A stretch of 64,000 nt of DNA from Aequorivita xiaoshiensis (GTDB lineage: Bacteria; Bacteroidota; Bacteroidia; Flavobacteriales; Flavobacteriaceae), in contig NZ_JAIRBB010000004.1 in the NCBI RefSeq assembly GCF_022008395.1, positions 1 through 64,000 on the forward strand, in the 5' to 3' direction. Both the position numbers and the translations under genes were made by a program. Under the pieces are notes generated by a model. The model searched no databases, was not told the DNA's origin, and was given only the letters and a program-made list of their open reading frames with translations. This document shows positions 41,537 through 46,783 of the stretch, piece after piece (position 1 is the first letter of the stretch; every line of letters starts with the position of its first letter).

Positions 41537-42478
41537 TTACTTAAAATTCTTTTTAAACCATTCAACTTGAGCTTCTAAGCCTTTGCGTAAATCTGTTTTT
41601 GGATTGTAATTTAAAAGATTTCTTGCCTTATCGATATTAGCCTTAGTTCTCGATTGATCCCCGGCACGAGGTGGTTTCTTATCAAAATTTATTTTTTCTT
41701 TGAGAATATCTTCAACCGTTGAAATTCCTTCAGCAGTTGTACTTTCTGTTTCAGTACCTAAATTGAAAATCTCCCCATTACAAATAACTTCTTTACCGAT
41801 AACGCTTATAATTCCGTCGACAATGTCTTGCACATAAGTAAAACTACGAAGGTGCTTTTCACTTCCATTAAATAAAGGAAACGGTTTATTATTTAAAGCA
41901 CAATCTATTAATCTTGTGTATAGTTTATCAGGTCTTTCTCGAGGTCCATATACCGAAAAAAGTCTTAGAGAAGTTGCTTGTAATTTCATTTCACGGCTTT
42001 TTGCCAAAGCTAATTGCTCGGCGGCTAATTTTGTAACCCCATACCAAGACGCAGGTTTTGCAGTAGTTGTTTCAGGAAATGTAGCTTCAAGACCGTATAT
42101 CGATGAAGTTGCAATATTTACAAAAAACGGTTTTTGTGATAAGCTTTCCGCAAATTCTAATAAACGTTGAGTTCCCAAAATATTATTACTGCAATAATCT
42201 TCGAAAGTGGAAGTATTTGAAATGCCCGGATGTGCAGCAAAATGAAATATATAATCTAGGTTTTCAGGAATTTTGCTGCTTAAATCATCAGTCCGTAGGT
42301 CTAGTTTTAGAACTTCAATATGTTTTTCGGCTAAGGCTTTCGCATTTAACTCTTTTAACTGTATATTGTAATAAGGTGAAAAATTATCAACCCCAATTAC
42401 ATCATGACCCACAGCCTTCAATCTTTCTGCAGTATGTGAACCTATAAACCCGGCAGCTCCTGTAACAAGTATTTTCAT
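41537..42478 (-). CDS. NAD-dependent sugar epimerase/dehydratase, UDP-glucuronate 4-epimerase-like
   Basis: The 313-residue extended SDR has a nucleotide-binding GAAGFIGSHTAERL near the N-terminus and catalytic YxxxK in SWYGVTKLAAEQ, with an upstream Ser in ATSSIYG. GVDNFSPYYNIQLK near residue 35 and the overall layout resemble UDP-glucuronate 4-epimerases, which make UDP-galacturonate. Substrate specificity is inferred. It is divergent from a glycosyltransferase operon and only 5 nt from meaB's convergent end. Confidence 0.82.
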   Translation of the reverse strand: MKILVTGAAGFIGSHTAERLKAVGHDVIGVDNFSPYYNIQLKELNAKALAEKHIEVLKLDLRTDDLSSKIPENLDYIFHFAAHPGISNTSTFEDYCSNNILGTQRLLEFAESLSQKPFFVNIATSSIYGLEATFPETTTAKPASWYGVTKLAAEQLALAKSREMKLQATSLRLFSVYGPRERPDKLYTRLIDCALNNKPFPLFNGSEKHLRSFTYVQDIVDGIISVIGKEVICNGEIFNLGTETESTTAEGISTVEDILKEKINFDKKPPRAGDQSRTKANIDKARNLLNYNPKTDLRKGLEAQVEWFKKNFK

Positions 42479-42482
42479 TTAT

Positions 42483-42677
42483 TTATTTTTCAATCAAGAC
42501 TGAAGAAAATCCCAAACCACAACAAGTACAATATTTAAATCTCATTTTATTGCTCTTAGGGCTTGTGTACACTTTTCTTTTCCTTGCAAAATAACATCTT
42601 TTTAAACAAACACTTTTACCTTTCGCAACTTTACTTTCATTAAACAAAGTAAAATTTTGACGATGCTCGATATTCAT
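42483..42677 (-). CDS. Possible small cysteine-containing protein
   Basis: An ATG at 42677 opens a 64-codon frame that ends 4 nt before the epimerase ATG. It overlaps no other gene and its codons are ordinary for this genome. The product is very basic and has CLKRC and YCTCCG, a spacing that might bind zinc. No family is recognised. A real small gene co-transcribed with the epimerase, or a chance frame, remain open. Confidence 0.4.
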   Translation of the reverse strand: MNIEHRQNFTLFNESKVAKGKSVCLKRCYFARKRKVYTSPKSNKMRFKYCTCCGLGFSSVLIEK

Positions 42678-42713
42678 CAATTAATAAACCTATAAACTTC
42701 TCAACTAAAAACT

Positions 42714-42721
42714 TACATTTG
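42714..42721 (+). promoter_or_regulatory. -7 box of the glycosyltransferase operon
   Basis: TACATTTG followed by C, an exact TAnnTTTG, 23 nt before the ATG at 42745. No clear -33 element. Confidence 0.5.
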
Positions 42722-42744
42722 CAAAAATCTTTTCAATTTATTAC

Positions 42745-43455
42745 ATGTACGAATTCACAATCATTGTACCCGTTTATAACGAGGAAGAAAACTTAGAAAG
42801 AGTTGAAAAGGAACTATTAGCATATACCAAAATCGCTTCTAAAAAGACATCCATACTGTTTGTTAACGATGGTTCAAGTGATAATAGCCAAACTTTAATT
42901 GAAGCTATATGTAAAAGGAATAATGCTTTTAATTTTATTTCTTTCAAAGATAATCGAGGGTTAAGCGCAGCAATTAAAGCTGGATTTGACACTGTTGAAA
43001 GTCCGTTAGTGGGTTACATTGACAGTGATTTACAAACCGACCCAGAAGATTTCAACCTACTTTTAAAACACATTGGTGAGTACGATCTTGTTACTGGGGT
43101 TCGTGCCGATAGAAAAGACAAGTTTGTAAAAAACATGTCGTCTAAAATTGCAAACGGTATCCGCCGCACATTTACTCATGATGGAATGGACGACACAGGA
43201 TGTCCTTTAAAAGTTATAAAAACAGACTATGCCAAACGTATTCCTATGTTTAAAGGGCTTCATCGTTTTTTACCTGCAATGATTTTATTACAAAACGGAA
43301 AAATTATCCAAGTTCCTGTTAAGCATTTTCCTAGAATGGCGGGTACGGCTAAATTCGGGCTATGGAATCGTTTGATTGGGCCTTTAATAGATTGTTTTGC
43401 GTACTTATGGATGAAAAAGAAATACATCAATTACGAGATTAAAAGTAAAGGATGA
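42745..43455 (+). CDS. Family 2 glycosyltransferase (polyprenyl-phosphate sugar synthase type)
   Basis: The 236-residue GT-A enzyme starts FTIIVPVYNEEENL and has NDGSSD, GYIDSDLQTDPED (the DxD region) and GMDDTGCPLKV. It resembles dolichol- or undecaprenyl-phosphate mannose synthases and ArnC/RgtE-type enzymes, which load a sugar on a lipid carrier at the inner membrane. It lacks the two C-terminal transmembrane helices found in ArnC. A 4-bp overlap links it to the LAB_N gene. The sugar is unknown. Confidence 0.85.
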   Translation: MYEFTIIVPVYNEEENLERVEKELLAYTKIASKKTSILFVNDGSSDNSQTLIEAICKRNNAFNFISFKDNRGLSAAIKAGFDTVESPLVGYIDSDLQTDPEDFNLLLKHIGEYDLVTGVRADRKDKFVKNMSSKIANGIRRTFTHDGMDDTGCPLKVIKTDYAKRIPMFKGLHRFLPAMILLQNGKIIQVPVKHFPRMAGTAKFGLWNRLIGPLIDCFAYLWMKKKYINYEIKSKG

Positions 43456-44084
43456 GTAGCTGGCTTATTTATAGCATTGGTTTTTTAGCTCAAATTCTTT
43501 TTAGCGGAAGACTATTACTTCAATGGATTCTTTCCGAAAAAAGCAAGCGAATTATCACTCCTTCCACATTTTGGAAACTAAGTTTATTCGCTTCATTTCT
43601 ACTTTTTGTTTACGGATATCTAAGAGACGACTTCGCAATAATGTTAGGGCAAGCGCTCACTTATTACATCTATATTCGAAATTTACAACTACAAGGGGAA
43701 TGGCAGAAATCTCCTAAGTTATTGCAACTATTTCTAATTATATTTCCGGTGCTTATTGTAATATTCGCTTATAACAACGGCCAATACGACCTCAATAAAC
43801 TCTTTAATAACCAAAATATTCCGTTTTGGTTACTTTTACTTGGTATTGTTTCGCAGGTTTTGTTCACTCTAAGATTTATTTATCAATGGTTTGTATCAGA
43901 AAGAACAAGAAAATCTCAGCTTCCTGTAGGATTTTGGAGAATGAGCGTAATAGGAGCTTCACTAATTTTAATCTATGCCATATTTAGAAAAGATCCTGTG
44001 TTATTTGTTGGGCATATAGCTGGATTGGTAATTTATGTTCGAAATATTTTCATTTGGAAAAAACAAGTTGATAATGAAAATTGA
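43452..44084 (+). CDS. Membrane protein with two LAB_N (lipid A biosynthesis N-terminal) domains
   Basis: The 210-residue protein has about six transmembrane helices and an internal duplication: GFLAQILFSGRLLLQWILSE (residues 10-29) and GIVSQVLFTLRFIYQWFVSE (about 132-151) are two copies of the LAB_N motif. The motif is named for its occurrence at the N-terminus of some lipid-A-disaccharide synthases. Stand-alone versions accompany glycosyltransferase pairs and may help flip or present lipid-linked sugar. It overlaps both neighbours. Confidence 0.85.
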   Translation: MSSWLIYSIGFLAQILFSGRLLLQWILSEKSKRIITPSTFWKLSLFASFLLFVYGYLRDDFAIMLGQALTYYIYIRNLQLQGEWQKSPKLLQLFLIIFPVLIVIFAYNNGQYDLNKLFNNQNIPFWLLLLGIVSQVLFTLRFIYQWFVSERTRKSQLPVGFWRMSVIGASLILIYAIFRKDPVLFVGHIAGLVIYVRNIFIWKKQVDNEN

Positions 44085-45720
44085 AAGAAATTATTTAGTG
44101 CTTCTTATAATTACTTGCGCAGCCATTTTCTTTGTAAACTTAGGCTCTTTGCCTGTAAATATAATGGAAGCTCGCAACTTCATTACGGCACGCGAAATGC
44201 TTACCGACGGCAATTGGTTGCTAACCACAATAAACGGAGAGCCACGCTATCAAAAACCTCCATTGCCCACTTGGTTAACGGCTTTTTCTGCAGCAATTTT
44301 CGGAATAAAATCAGTTTGGGCTTTACGTCTTCCCGCAGCCATTATGTCGCTTGTTCTAGTTTTAATCTCATTCAAATTTGCACAAAAACTTACATCTGAA
44401 AAGCTGTATTCTTTTATCAGTGCGCTGGTTATGGCAACTTCATTTTATATAGTGGCATCTGCACGCGACGGCCAATGGGATATTTACACTCATGGATTTA
44501 TGATGTTGTGTATTTATATGTTGTTTCGCTTTTTTTCTGATGACATAACTAGACATCGTGAAGAAAATAACCAATATCGAAATGCACTTTTAGCAGGACT
44601 GTTTTTTGGATTTTCATTTTTAAGCAAAGGCCCTGTTTCATTTTATGCATTACTTCTACCTTTTCTAATTTCGTTTGGGATAGTTTATAGGTTTAGAGAT
44701 TTAAAATCAAGATGGCTTCCTTTATTGCTATTTGTTGTAGTTGCAGCTATTATTTCTAGTTGGTGGCACTGGTACACCCTTACTTTTGATCCTGTAGCAA
44801 TAGAAATCACCAAAAAAGAAACTACCAACTGGATTAGTTACGAAATAAAACCGTTTTATTACTATTGGAGCTTTTTTACTCAAAGTGGCGTTTGGACTAT
44901 CCCAGCATTTGTAGCATTACTATATCCTTATTTAAAAAATCGCGTATTCAATAAAAAAGCTTATCTCTTTACTTTTCTTTGGACGATGATTTCAGTTGTC
45001 TTACTTTCTTTAATTCCAGAAAAAAAATCGAGATACTTATTGCCCGTCCTTATTCCAATGGCACTAAACACTGGATTTTATATTGAATATCTTTTCAGAA
45101 AGTTTAAGGAATTAACTGAAAAACGAGAAACAATTCCAGTTTATTTTAACTTCGGACTTATCGCTTCTATAGGAATAATTTTTCCAATTGGCGGATATCT
45201 GTTTTTGGAAGATGGTCTCGAAGGAAATTGGCTTTGGTTTGTGCTCCTTTCAATAACTCTTGTGATAATTGGAGTTTTTATGTTCCGAAACCTTTTCAGA
45301 AGAAAAATATCAAATGTATTTTATTTAACAATTGCATTTATTGTTGCAGTTATTTGGTTTGGACTACCACTAAGTAATGCTATTACAAACAATCCTGAAT
45401 ACAAATCATTTTCAGAATTATATACTTTTGGCAAAACTGAAGGGTTACGTATTTATGAGTTTTCTGATATGACTCCAGAACTTATTTGGGATTACGGTGA
45501 AAAGATGACGATTTTAAAAGAAGATGATAATGTTATGATTCCAGAAGAAAGCAAGTTTGGTGTTATGGTTTCTGAAAACAATCTAGAGAATTTCAATAAT
45601 ACTTTTGTCGATTACCACAAAGAACTTGTAAAGCGATACGATATGAATCCAAAAGATTCTGACAGCCGCACTCACAAAAACAGATTGTATAGAGATTTGT
45701 TTATTGTATCGAAAAAATAA
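44074..45720 (+). CDS. ArnT-like family 39 glycosyltransferase
   Basis: This integral-membrane enzyme of about 548 residues has roughly 12 helices. The first periplasmic loop carries the acidic motif MEARNFITAREML and the QKPPLPTWL segment typical of ArnT/PMT proteins, and a SKGPVSFYALLLPF region follows. It uses polyprenyl-phosphate sugars as donors, often to modify lipid A or glycoproteins. The ATG at 44074, inside the end of the LAB_N gene (11-bp overlap), gives the best N-terminus; 13 further codons upstream are possible. Confidence 0.86.
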   Translation: MKIERNYLVLLIITCAAIFFVNLGSLPVNIMEARNFITAREMLTDGNWLLTTINGEPRYQKPPLPTWLTAFSAAIFGIKSVWALRLPAAIMSLVLVLISFKFAQKLTSEKLYSFISALVMATSFYIVASARDGQWDIYTHGFMMLCIYMLFRFFSDDITRHREENNQYRNALLAGLFFGFSFLSKGPVSFYALLLPFLISFGIVYRFRDLKSRWLPLLLFVVVAAIISSWWHWYTLTFDPVAIEITKKETTNWISYEIKPFYYYWSFFTQSGVWTIPAFVALLYPYLKNRVFNKKAYLFTFLWTMISVVLLSLIPEKKSRYLLPVLIPMALNTGFYIEYLFRKFKELTEKRETIPVYFNFGLIASIGIIFPIGGYLFLEDGLEGNWLWFVLLSITLVIIGVFMFRNLFRRKISNVFYLTIAFIVAVIWFGLPLSNAITNNPEYKSFSELYTFGKTEGLRIYEFSDMTPELIWDYGEKMTILKEDDNVMIPEESKFGVMVSENNLENFNNTFVDYHKELVKRYDMNPKDSDSRTHKNRLYRDLFIVSKK

Positions 45721-45731
45721 ATATTTCAAAC

Positions 45732-45756
45732 CTGACAAGTTTTAAAAACCTGTCAG
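45732..45756. terminator. Bidirectional hairpin between the GT39 and PAP2 genes
   Basis: CTGACAAGTTTT (45732-45743) and AAAACCTGTCAG (45745-45756) are inverted arms with one mismatch. T-rich sequence flanks both sides. Confidence 0.65.
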
Positions 45757-45799
45757 ATTTACAGAAAGTTAAGAATTAAATTTTCGTTGTAAAAAAGAG

Positions 45800-45817
45800 G
45801 TTTCGACTGCGCTCAAC
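45800..45817 (-). repeat. Dispersed intergenic repeat, copy 2
   Basis: On the minus strand it reads GGTTGAGCGCAGTCGAAACC. It matches copy 1 at 25868-25886 with two substitutions and again lies at a gene 3' end. Confidence 0.5.
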
Positions 45818-45827
45818 CTGACAGCAT

Positions 45828-46394
45828 TTAGGTATTAAACTTTCGTTGTCCCCACAGCTGCAACAAATAAAAGCCCCAGCCTAATAGACCACCAATGGCC
45901 ATTCCTGTAATAACATCTAAGGGATAGTGAACACCTAGGTAAATTCGGCTGTACCCAGTCATAACTGCCCATATTAAAAGGAGAAAAGGCAAATATTTAT
46001 ACCATTTTTGAAGACTCAATCCTAGAAATACGGCTGCTGCCATTGAACTTGCTGCGTGTGCTGAAAAGTACCCATATCTTCCACAACCATCTGCAACGTA
46101 GCGCATAGTTTCTTTAAGCTCGGCTACCTGGCAAGGTCTAGGACGTTTAATTCCGTATTTAAAAAGATTAGCTAGTTGATCTGTTGCAGTAATCATTAAA
46201 GCTACACTTATAACTATTACAAGCATTCCTTTTAATCCGTAATGCTTATATATTAAATAAAGTAAAACTGCGTATAAAGGAATAGATGACCATTTTTCAG
46301 TTACAAAACGCCAAAACCCATCCCAAGAGGTATTTCCTAGGTTATTGAGAAATAAAAATAGTTCGGTGTCGTATTCTAATAATTGGTCGAGCAT
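45828..46394 (-). CDS. PAP2-family membrane phosphatase
   Basis: The 188-residue protein has about five transmembrane helices and the three phosphatase motifs: KYGIKRPRP, YFSAHAASS (SAH in place of SGH, with the catalytic His) and SRIYLGVHYPLDV. It acts on lipid phosphates or pyrophosphates facing the periplasm. Candidates are undecaprenyl pyrophosphatase or an LpxE-type lipid A phosphatase. It is convergent with the GT39 gene. Confidence 0.88.
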   Translation of the reverse strand: MLDQLLEYDTELFLFLNNLGNTSWDGFWRFVTEKWSSIPLYAVLLYLIYKHYGLKGMLVIVISVALMITATDQLANLFKYGIKRPRPCQVAELKETMRYVADGCGRYGYFSAHAASSMAAAVFLGLSLQKWYKYLPFLLLIWAVMTGYSRIYLGVHYPLDVITGMAIGGLLGWGFYLLQLWGQRKFNT

Positions 46395-46484: not shown

Positions 46485-46715
46485 TTAATCTTCTTCGTAC
46501 AAGGCAATCTCACGATCATAAAAATCGGTAGCGCCTTGGATTAAGTTTTCTGCTTCAGCTTCTAATTCGTTTTGATCTTCCTTGTCAAAATCTTCCAGCC
46601 ATTCTACTTCATCATTTTCAAGGTTTATGATAAAACGCGGAAATTCTGTGTGAATCACAAAAATTGCATTAGGGTAATCGCTATTGTCGCCAAGTAAGTA
46701 TTTTGGGAAATCCAT
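46485..46715 (-). CDS. Conserved small acidic protein of unknown function
   Basis: The 76-residue protein starts MDFPKYLLGDNSDYPNAIF and contains FPRFIINLENDEVEW; the last third is Glu/Asp-rich. I recall similar small proteins in flavobacteria but know no function. It has the codon use of its neighbours and lies between the PAP2 and MATE genes on the same strand. Confidence 0.65.
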   Translation of the reverse strand: MDFPKYLLGDNSDYPNAIFVIHTEFPRFIINLENDEVEWLEDFDKEDQNELEAEAENLIQGATDFYDREIALYEED

Positions 46716-46783
46716 TTTTAGTTATAAGTTTAGAGTTATGAGTTTTTTTAATCAGGATTCAGTTAAACATTTTCCTTCTGTTA

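Follow-up and report, generated by a model that had tools for sequence, protein, structure and literature searches.

A candidate locus for lipid-linked sugar transfer in Aequorivita xiaoshiensis, centered on a tandem LAB_N protein

Genes of the locus

The window, that is, the whole stretch of 64,000 nucleotides of Aequorivita xiaoshiensis DNA analyzed here, contains five open reading frames between positions 41537 and 46394, all of them present where the first-pass annotation had placed them and with family assignments that agree: the Pfam scores are 161.9 bits for Epimerase, 86.8 for Glycos_transf_2, 190.8 for LAB_N (two stretches), 65.3 for PMT_2, and 88.3 for PAP2. The firm core of the locus is an overlapping trio on the plus strand, in which the genes for GT2 (42745..43455) and the tandem LAB_N protein (43452..44084) share four bases (ATGA), and the GT39 gene (44074..45720) starts either at ATG 44074, overlapping the LAB_N gene by 11 bases, or alternatively at 44035. 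According to direct reading of the sequence, a divergent intergenic region (42479..42744) separates the trio from the epimerase gene, EPI (41537..42478, minus strand); a PAP2 phosphatase gene (45828..46394, minus strand) is the neighbor on the other side.

GT2 (236 aa) resembles polyprenyl-phosphate sugar synthases and is ArnC-like, as had been proposed, its best solved relative being ArnC (chain 9hwj, 6.5e-27, residues 4–218). Both aspartates of its DSD motif are invariant among 21 relatives. No membrane helix is predicted in GT2, and no 19-mer exceeds 1.6 on the hydropathy scale.

For GT39 (548 aa), sequence, profile, and fold all put ArnT nearest, in line with the earlier description of this protein as ArnT-like. 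Within the limits applied, no solved sequence other than ArnT (5ezm) is matched (4.5e-8 by sequence, 1.4e-23 by profile), and ArnT is also the best Foldseek match of the AF2 model (pLDDT 91.0; E 1.9e-15, TMq 0.67); the protein has a PMT_2 domain above the cut-off of 26.1 bits and the GT-C fold. Other Foldseek matches of the model are oligosaccharyltransferases (4.0e-6) and Pmt4 (6.3e-5); hence, clustering with protein O-glycosylation enzymes, which would speak against a lipid A role, is not seen among solved folds. Counting against the pathway proposed below, GT39 has Met in place of the Asp that precedes Glu in ArnT, an Asp with a catalytic role.

The LAB_N protein (210 aa; PF07578, score above the cut-off) consists of two repeats, and both LAB_N matches in the genome fall within this one protein. 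Its AF2 model (pLDDT 88.8) has seven long helices arranged as 3+1+3, which is the plan of full-length SWEETs. Profile comparison retrieves SemiSWEET chains (4qnd, E 1.4e-4, and another at 5.6e-4), and by its sequence the protein is kin to the SWEET/PQ-loop superfamily; the score against NCBIfam SemiSWEET_3 is 32.9 bits, below the cut-off of 100. Fold comparison yields Z 8.0 over 87 residues for SemiSWEET and Z 9.6 over 153 residues for PnuC, designed helical repeats scoring alike, and a Foldseek search of the PDB with the model gave no match below 0.001. Arg, Glu, Asp, and an Arg-Asn pair are invariant in LAB_N.

The closest solved relatives of EPI, an SDR epimerase (313 aa), are PDB 6zl6 (2.8e-53) and MoeE5, 6kv9 (8.4e-43); 6ZLD, 6ZLJ, and 6ZLL are given as UGAepi structures in the accessible text of PMC11519531. 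The UGAepi site comprises Thr-Ser-Ser residues at the carboxylate and a product-side Arg, the third residue being Glu in decarboxylases (PMC7984243, PMC12338863). In the alignment, the T, S, S, and product-side R are each kept in 26 out of 26 EPI proteins. Since relatives and site residues agree, EPI is probably a UDP-glucuronate 4-epimerase, the function suggested for it in the first pass, presumably yielding the galacturonate nucleotide sugar.

Conservation of the trio and its neighbors

The GT2–LAB_N pair is present in 38 out of 40 fetched loci of the family, and GT39 scores above 150 bits in 35 out of 40; thus, the trio arrangement is not a matter of chance. In a set of 150 loci, where a few organisms are counted twice, GT2 lies directly upstream of LAB_N on the same strand at 135, with 129 of these pairs at most 10 bases apart. 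Among the best 80 of 547 named LAB_N loci, 68 from several families have LAB_N preceded by GT2 and followed by, or fused to, GT39, LAB_N–GT39 fusions accounting for 20; the 13 fusions placed in a tree form one group with 99% support. In 80 LAB_N-negative genomes from the Cyclobacteriaceae-type family, the GT39 profile has a match at E 1 or better in 46, and GT39 clusters were read in G752 and G812. Weak single LAB_N matches elsewhere in the genome, without the trio, were noted in G113 and G094 (L087, L088). In open-access literature, at the level of search listings, queries on LAB_N beside glycosyltransferases and on MPDU1 with flippase found no description of the trio.

Of the five-gene neighborhood assumed initially, the trio recurs across Bacteroidota, and PAP2 does not appear to belong to it. 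PAP2 relatives occur in 20 out of 20 LAB_N-negative genomes (identities 33–59%, the weakest possibly being paralogs), and at 14 of these 20 loci they adjoin a relative of the MATE gene from the window. As the PAP2–MATE pair exists without LAB_N, it is an older pair standing beside the trio rather than part of a five-gene unit, and we rejected the phosphatase as a member of the modification system. The best NCBIfam match of PAP2 is SepP, at 53 of 250 bits.

EPI is found in 30 out of 39 LAB_N-positive and two out of 20 LAB_N-negative genomes (Fisher 9e-7, uncorrected for kinship), the latter two retaining EPI without the trio. A second epimerase subfamily (type 2) has an SSS site in 24 out of 24 proteins, and the locus has an SSS-type epimerase in 15 of the best 80 of 547 named cases, Pontibacter, Marinifilum, Labilibaculum, and Ancylomarina among them; either type is nearby in only 16 of these 80. 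Genome-wide, one type or the other occurs in 37 out of 39 LAB_N-positive vs. 11 out of 20 LAB_N-negative genomes (p 5e-4), the two EPI-positive LAB_N-negative genomes having been left out of the type-2 test. Type 2 by itself was discarded as a marker of LAB_N, being present in seven out of nine EPI-less LAB_N-positive genomes and nine out of 18 LAB_N-negative ones. Genome G000 has three genes of the PF03721 UDP-sugar dehydrogenase family and no type-2 epimerase at 1e-50. At the locus, EPI and a membrane protein of ~222 aa are mutually exclusive (both in none of 23), which does not hold genome-wide; for the latter protein, tested from two loci (L037, L041), there is no match in Pfam or NCBIfam.

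Proposed pathway and its alternatives

We suggest a pathway of four steps. In the cytoplasm, EPI would convert UDP-glucuronate to UDP-galacturonate, as its sequence strongly indicates; the soluble GT2, judging by its kinship to ArnC, would attach the sugar to polyprenyl phosphate on the cytoplasmic side of the membrane; the SWEET-like seven-helix LAB_N protein may dock GT2 and flip or hand over the sugar lipid, holding the place of MPDU1 in eukaryotes, as its kinship, the tight coupling, and the fusion to GT39 suggest; and, on the periplasmic side, GT39 would pass the sugar to an envelope acceptor, most likely LPS (lipid A 4' or the inner core). For the whole pathway with LPS as the acceptor, we estimate a probability of about 0.5.

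A part of LAB_N in carrier handling, as proposed in the first-pass annotation, is reasonable given the SemiSWEET kinship and the fusion to GT39, and our best reading of the protein is that of a putative MPDU1-like carrier-handling partner. Alternatively, LAB_N could simply anchor or activate the soluble GT2 in the membrane, as DPM2/DPM3 do for DPM1, without moving any sugar lipid. This would suit a GT2 with no predicted membrane helix and the fact that the GT2–LAB_N pair is the most constant part of the locus, retained even without a nearby GT39 (L053, L060, L152, L161), and membrane targeting of DPM1 does depend on DPM2/3 according to the accessible text of PMC4281381. However, the sequence profile relates LAB_N to transporters, and its partner in the fusions examined is always GT39, never GT2, so that we consider the anchor role rather doubtful. 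Genes for PF04018 polyprenyl-phosphate translocase-like proteins adjoin the GT2–LAB_N pair at loci L051, L143, L152, and L161.

As to the acceptor, lipid A of Echinicola carries D-GalA on the non-reducing GlcN (PMC8707317) and that of Cellulophaga D-mannose (PMC11065906), and lipid A with one phosphate, no sugar being named in the accessible text, is described for Zunongwangia (PMC9470727) and Polaribacter (PMC12177697); none of these four genera is among the best 80 of 547 named LAB_N loci. In Arenibacter certesii, lipid A has phosphates at C1 and C4', and GalA is mentioned in the LPS (review PMC4052302, section 3.6). Arenibacter sp. 6A1, a different species, has the trio with no EPI nearby (L187). 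Since A. certesii keeps the C4' phosphate along with GalA in its LPS, while sp. 6A1 has the trio without a nearby EPI, the core fits better than lipid A 4'. The 4'-position as the sole acceptor is a minority prospect, albeit a plausible one.

The same chemistry could also serve an acceptor other than LPS, for instance a protein (secreted or on the surface), a capsule, or some other glycan of the envelope, given that the GT39 model also resembles Pmt4 and oligosaccharyltransferases and that general protein O-glycosylation is reported for Bacteroidota. We regard this as improbable, because ArnT is by far the best solved fold as well as the only solved sequence match, and because transfer of a monosaccharide from a lipid monophosphate would differ from en bloc transfer of an oligosaccharide. 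It is similarly unlikely that the sugar is not galacturonate, with EPI acting on another UDP-sugar or remaining a side gene of a trio that carries mannose or another hexose: where the ~222-aa protein is present, EPI is missing from the locus, and Cellulophaga has mannose on its lipid A, but EPI has the UGAepi site and strongly co-occurs with LAB_N, and all seven family genomes with the ~222-aa version encode an epimerase elsewhere (EPI in three, type 2 in the rest).

Relation to known systems

The predicted activities of the galacturonate pathway are like those of the rhizobial Rgt system, namely, a uronate placed on polyprenyl phosphate and transferred to LPS, with GalA replacing phosphate; this likeness is drawn from published roles. 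In the accessible text of PMC7663294, RgtE is a polyprenyl-phosphate-GalA synthase, RgtD/RgtF are lipid A GalA transferases, and putative homologs are noted in Caulobacter and Aquifex. Unlike Rgt, the locus has a LAB_N partner (elsewhere fused to GT39), a GT2 without membrane helices, and an adjacent epimerase. Among solved structures, GT2 and GT39 are closest to ArnC and ArnT, which place L-Ara4N on lipid A, but the C-terminal part of ArnC has no counterpart in GT2, and an epimerase stands in place of ArnA. An Arn operon proper was rejected on NCBIfam scores (103.8 of 529 bits for GT2 as ArnC, 64.4 of 567 for GT39 as ArnT, 34.8 of 777 for EPI as ArnA).

The eukaryotic DPM1–MPDU1–PMT system has the same triad of a synthase, a PQ-loop-type membrane protein, and a GT-C transferase, LAB_N being likened to MPDU1 by role rather than by direct comparison of sequence or fold. 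MPDU1 is needed for the use of Dol-P-Man/Glc by a mechanism that is unsolved according to the accessible texts of PMC4281381 and PMC3281891. With SemiSWEETs and SWEETs, LAB_N shares the profile match and the modeled helix plan, but it is a tandem within one bacterial protein, has its own invariant residues, and likely handles a lipid-linked substrate.

More boldly, and only tentatively, LAB_N could be a full-length SWEET-type flippase or presenter for polyprenyl-phosphate monosaccharides, a counterpart of MPDU1, and the constant center of a module whose other parts can be exchanged (with at least two GT39 lineages, and two epimerase subfamilies or the ~222-aa protein) that adds galacturonate or another sugar to the LPS of many Bacteroidota and accounts for the lipid A in which marine species have a sugar instead of a phosphate. 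In some marine Bacteroidota, galacturonate or mannose replaces a lipid A phosphate; the Echinicola study left the genes behind this lipid A for later investigation (PMC8707317), and the locus offers candidate genes. If LAB_N indeed moves the sugar lipid, it would provide a small bacterial model for the role of MPDU1 and for the movement of lipid-linked monosaccharides.

Organization and conservation of the module

The position and domain scans confirmed all five genes of the first-pass annotation: the epimerase gene EPI (41537–42478, minus strand), GT2 (42745–43455, plus), LAB_N (43452–44084, plus), GT39 (44074–45720, plus), and PAP2 (45828–46394, minus). An ATGA overlap joins GT2 and LAB_N, and GT39 starts at ATG 44074, 11 bases inside the 3′ end of LAB_N, or earlier, at 44035. 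By eye, the intergenic region 3′ of GT39 (45729–45830) contains AACCTGACA/TGTCAG words, some repeated and some inverted, together with a TTTCGACTGCGCTCAACCTGACA element.

PF07578 was present in 59 of 120 Flavobacteriaceae genomes (56 above the cut-off), and among 40 LAB_N loci taken from 39 PF07578-positive genomes, relatives scoring above 150 bits were found for GT2 in 38, GT39 in 35, PAP2 in 31, and EPI in 25. GT2 is missing from L067 and L074; L051 has a GT39 of a different type, L053 has none, and in L060 a GT9-type protein takes its place. L067 carries a tandem LAB_N paralog without GT2 or GT39, neighboring deoxyhypusine synthase, arginase, decarboxylase, and UbiA genes and a convergent, weakly GT87-like gene; the upstream ORFs of L074 are of similar size, perhaps reflecting the same arrangement.

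The tandem-protein profile matched 13 of 395 genomes in a phylum-wide draw, the window genome among them, and 114/200, 39/196, and 22/121 genomes of three other sampled families (f9, f8, and f11, respectively). A separate scan of named genomes (the best 80 of 547 relatives) covers, among other genera, Algoriphagus, Cyclobacterium, Pontibacter, Marinifilum, Labilibaculum, Lutibacter, Winogradskyella, Tenacibaculum, and Arenibacter. In these 80 loci, GT2 lies directly upstream in 73, GT39 is fused or at most four genes downstream in 71, both hold in 68, and LAB_N and GT39 are fused in 20; one of the 80 had no LAB_N ORF when read. Spacing is tight: among 150 loci, with some organisms represented twice, 129 of 135 GT2–LAB_N neighbors and 84 of 98 unfused LAB_N–GT39 neighbors are at most 10 bases apart. 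In one LAB_N-negative genome (L203:743–1462), a GT2 gene (239.6 bits) lies between MeaB and PAP2 without LAB_N or GT39, representing either partial loss or an older form.

The putative carrier-handling partner and the transferases

GT2 proved ArnC-like, ArnC chains matching residues 4–218 with E-values from 6.5e-27, followed among solved proteins by sll0501 (4.9e-15); yet, despite ArnC being its best solved relative, the window GT2 has no predicted membrane helix.

The LAB_N protein, the product of the sole LAB_N gene found in the window genome, consists of two repeats alignable to each other. Modeling (pLDDT 88.8) predicts for it seven long helices arranged 3+1+3, the plan also of full-length SWEETs. 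A profile of 51 relatives matches SemiSWEET chains (1.4e-4 and 5.6e-4). The structural evidence is weaker: Foldseek with the model gave no match below 0.001, and structural alignment yielded Z 8.0 over 87 residues for SemiSWEET and Z 9.6 over 153 residues for PnuC, with designed helical repeats scoring similarly. Eukaryotes need MPDU1 to use Dol-P-Man and Dol-P-Glc (PMC4281381, PMC3281891); by analogy with that system, the combination of a synthase, a PQ-loop-type protein, and a GT-C transferase appears to recur here. Four divergent PF04018 genes, polyprenyl-phosphate (undecaprenyl-phosphate) translocase-like, lie beside GT2–LAB_N (L051:5217–7175, its protein above the NCBIfam equivalog cut-off; L143:624–1547; L152:6210–7136; L161:6212–7129), which is consistent with a polyprenyl phosphate carrier.

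The suggested ArnT likeness of GT39 was upheld: ArnT was the sole match among solved sequences (limits 0.1 and 0.01), and the fold search with the model (pLDDT 91.0) placed ArnT first (1.9e-15), followed by oligosaccharyltransferases (from 4.0e-6) and Pmt4 (6.3e-5). Where ArnT has Asp-Glu, the Asp being catalytic, the profile alignment shows Met-Glu in GT39; the lysine of KPP and the later Asp are both retained. A tree of 108 GT39 proteins contains a group of 65 (support 99%; loop motif mostly MEARN), including the window protein, and a group of 30 (96%; mostly SEARY or SDARY), which includes all 13 fusions used. Thus, the transferase lineage changes while LAB_N and GT2 stay; the tree says little about GT39s at large, since its rows were picked around LAB_N and it is midpoint-rooted. 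The 13 rows outside both groups include five PAP2 neighbors and four other proteins from LAB_N-negative genomes; LAB_N loci L102 and L103, an extra Lutibacter row, and the long-branched second GT39-like protein of the window genome also fall outside.

Epimerases and two locus versions

The closest solved relatives of the window EPI are UDP-glucuronate 4-epimerases, as which the 6ZL entries (PMC11519531) and MoeE5 (PMC7984243) are identified. Both the carboxylate-binding Thr-Ser-Ser, at whose third place decarboxylases have Glu (PMC7984243), and the product-side Arg (PMC12338863) are retained in 26 of 26 aligned EPI proteins. Of 39 LAB_N-positive genomes, 30 carry EPI, at the locus in 25 and elsewhere in five (the latter at E 1e-60 or better), versus two of 20 LAB_N-negative ones, the first 20 listed of 61 (Fisher p = 9e-7, kinship ignored). 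In these two (L204, L209), EPI is flanked by MeaB and PAP2, and the trio is absent from that interval.

In other families, a second epimerase subfamily, type 2, is found at the locus: at 15 of the named loci (the best 80 of 547) and at L075, L077, L082, L102–L106, and L108. The two type 2 proteins compared had 5u4q as the top match and 6zl6 as the second; 5u4q, deposited as a dTDP-glucose 4,6-dehydratase, is presumably a Klebsiella UDP-glucuronate epimerase. The site reads SSS in 24 of 24 type 2 proteins, as in MoeE5. Type 2 is common without LAB_N (nine of 18 LAB_N-negative genomes); either type occurs in 37 of 39 LAB_N-positive versus 11 of 20 negative genomes (p = 5e-4), type 2 being scored in the 18 negatives that lack EPI. 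The window genome has no type 2 epimerase at 1e-50; its three PF03721 genes, of a family broader than UDP-glucose dehydrogenase, make UDP-glucuronate supply plausible.

A multi-helix membrane protein of ~222 aa is encoded in 23 loci (L058 and L148 being the same organism). Its gene immediately follows GT39 at 22 of these loci, and EPI is absent from all 23. Two of these proteins (L037:5466–6134 and L041:9953–10627) had no match in Pfam/NCBIfam; a GAGEE[IV]SWGQR motif was seen in two sequences. In the family sample, seven loci have this protein, 25 have EPI, and none of 38 has both. The exclusion holds at the locus level only: three of the seven genomes carry EPI elsewhere (G096, G117, G030) and the other four carry type 2 (G021, G077, G113, G003). 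With an epimerase elsewhere in all seven, we infer that this version may also use galacturonate, with a different finishing step.

PAP2 and the candidate acceptors

The first-pass annotation proposed a five-gene lipid A sugar-modification locus; this idea is supported in part. The module is widespread and compact, and PAP2 is not one of its defining parts, as PAP2 relatives (identities of 33–59%, the weakest perhaps being paralogs) occur in 20 of 20 LAB_N-negative genomes, adjoining MATE in 14 of these 20 loci. Most MATE-bearing LAB_N-negative loci have an ORF of 74–76 aa between PAP2 and MATE (93 aa in L206), and the window has space for a small ORF there (about 46485–46720, minus strand). 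Five LAB_N-negative genomes (L205, L206, L208, L210, and L214) have, overlapping PAP2 or next to it, a GT39-like gene of another, long-branched kind (~500 aa). PAP2 could be a lipid A 4′-phosphatase, because published reports describe lipid A with a single phosphate, on the reducing sugar, in Zunongwangia (PMC9470727) and Polaribacter (PMC12177697), and without the 4′-phosphate in Capnocytophaga; an undecaprenyl pyrophosphatase is as likely.

In the lipid A of two Echinicola species, the non-reducing glucosamine bears D-GalA where a phosphate would otherwise be, the genes being deferred to future work (PMC8707317); in Cellulophaga pacifica, one or two mannoses are reported on this glucosamine (PMC11065906). 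These data show that sugar-for-phosphate chemistry exists in the phylum, its link to the trio being a candidate one. For Arenibacter certesii, a review (PMC4052302, section 3.6) describes lipid A phosphorylated at both C1 and C4′ and notes a GalA residue alongside the core structure. The trio is present, with no EPI nearby, in another species, Arenibacter sp. 6A1 (L187); taken together, these observations speak against the trio acting simply at lipid A 4′ and favor the core.

Relative to the first-pass annotation, it is new that the partner protein is related to SemiSWEETs and can be fused to the transferase, that the module is associated with two subfamilies of epimerase, that the locus exists in two versions, and that PAP2 is not among the defining parts of the system.
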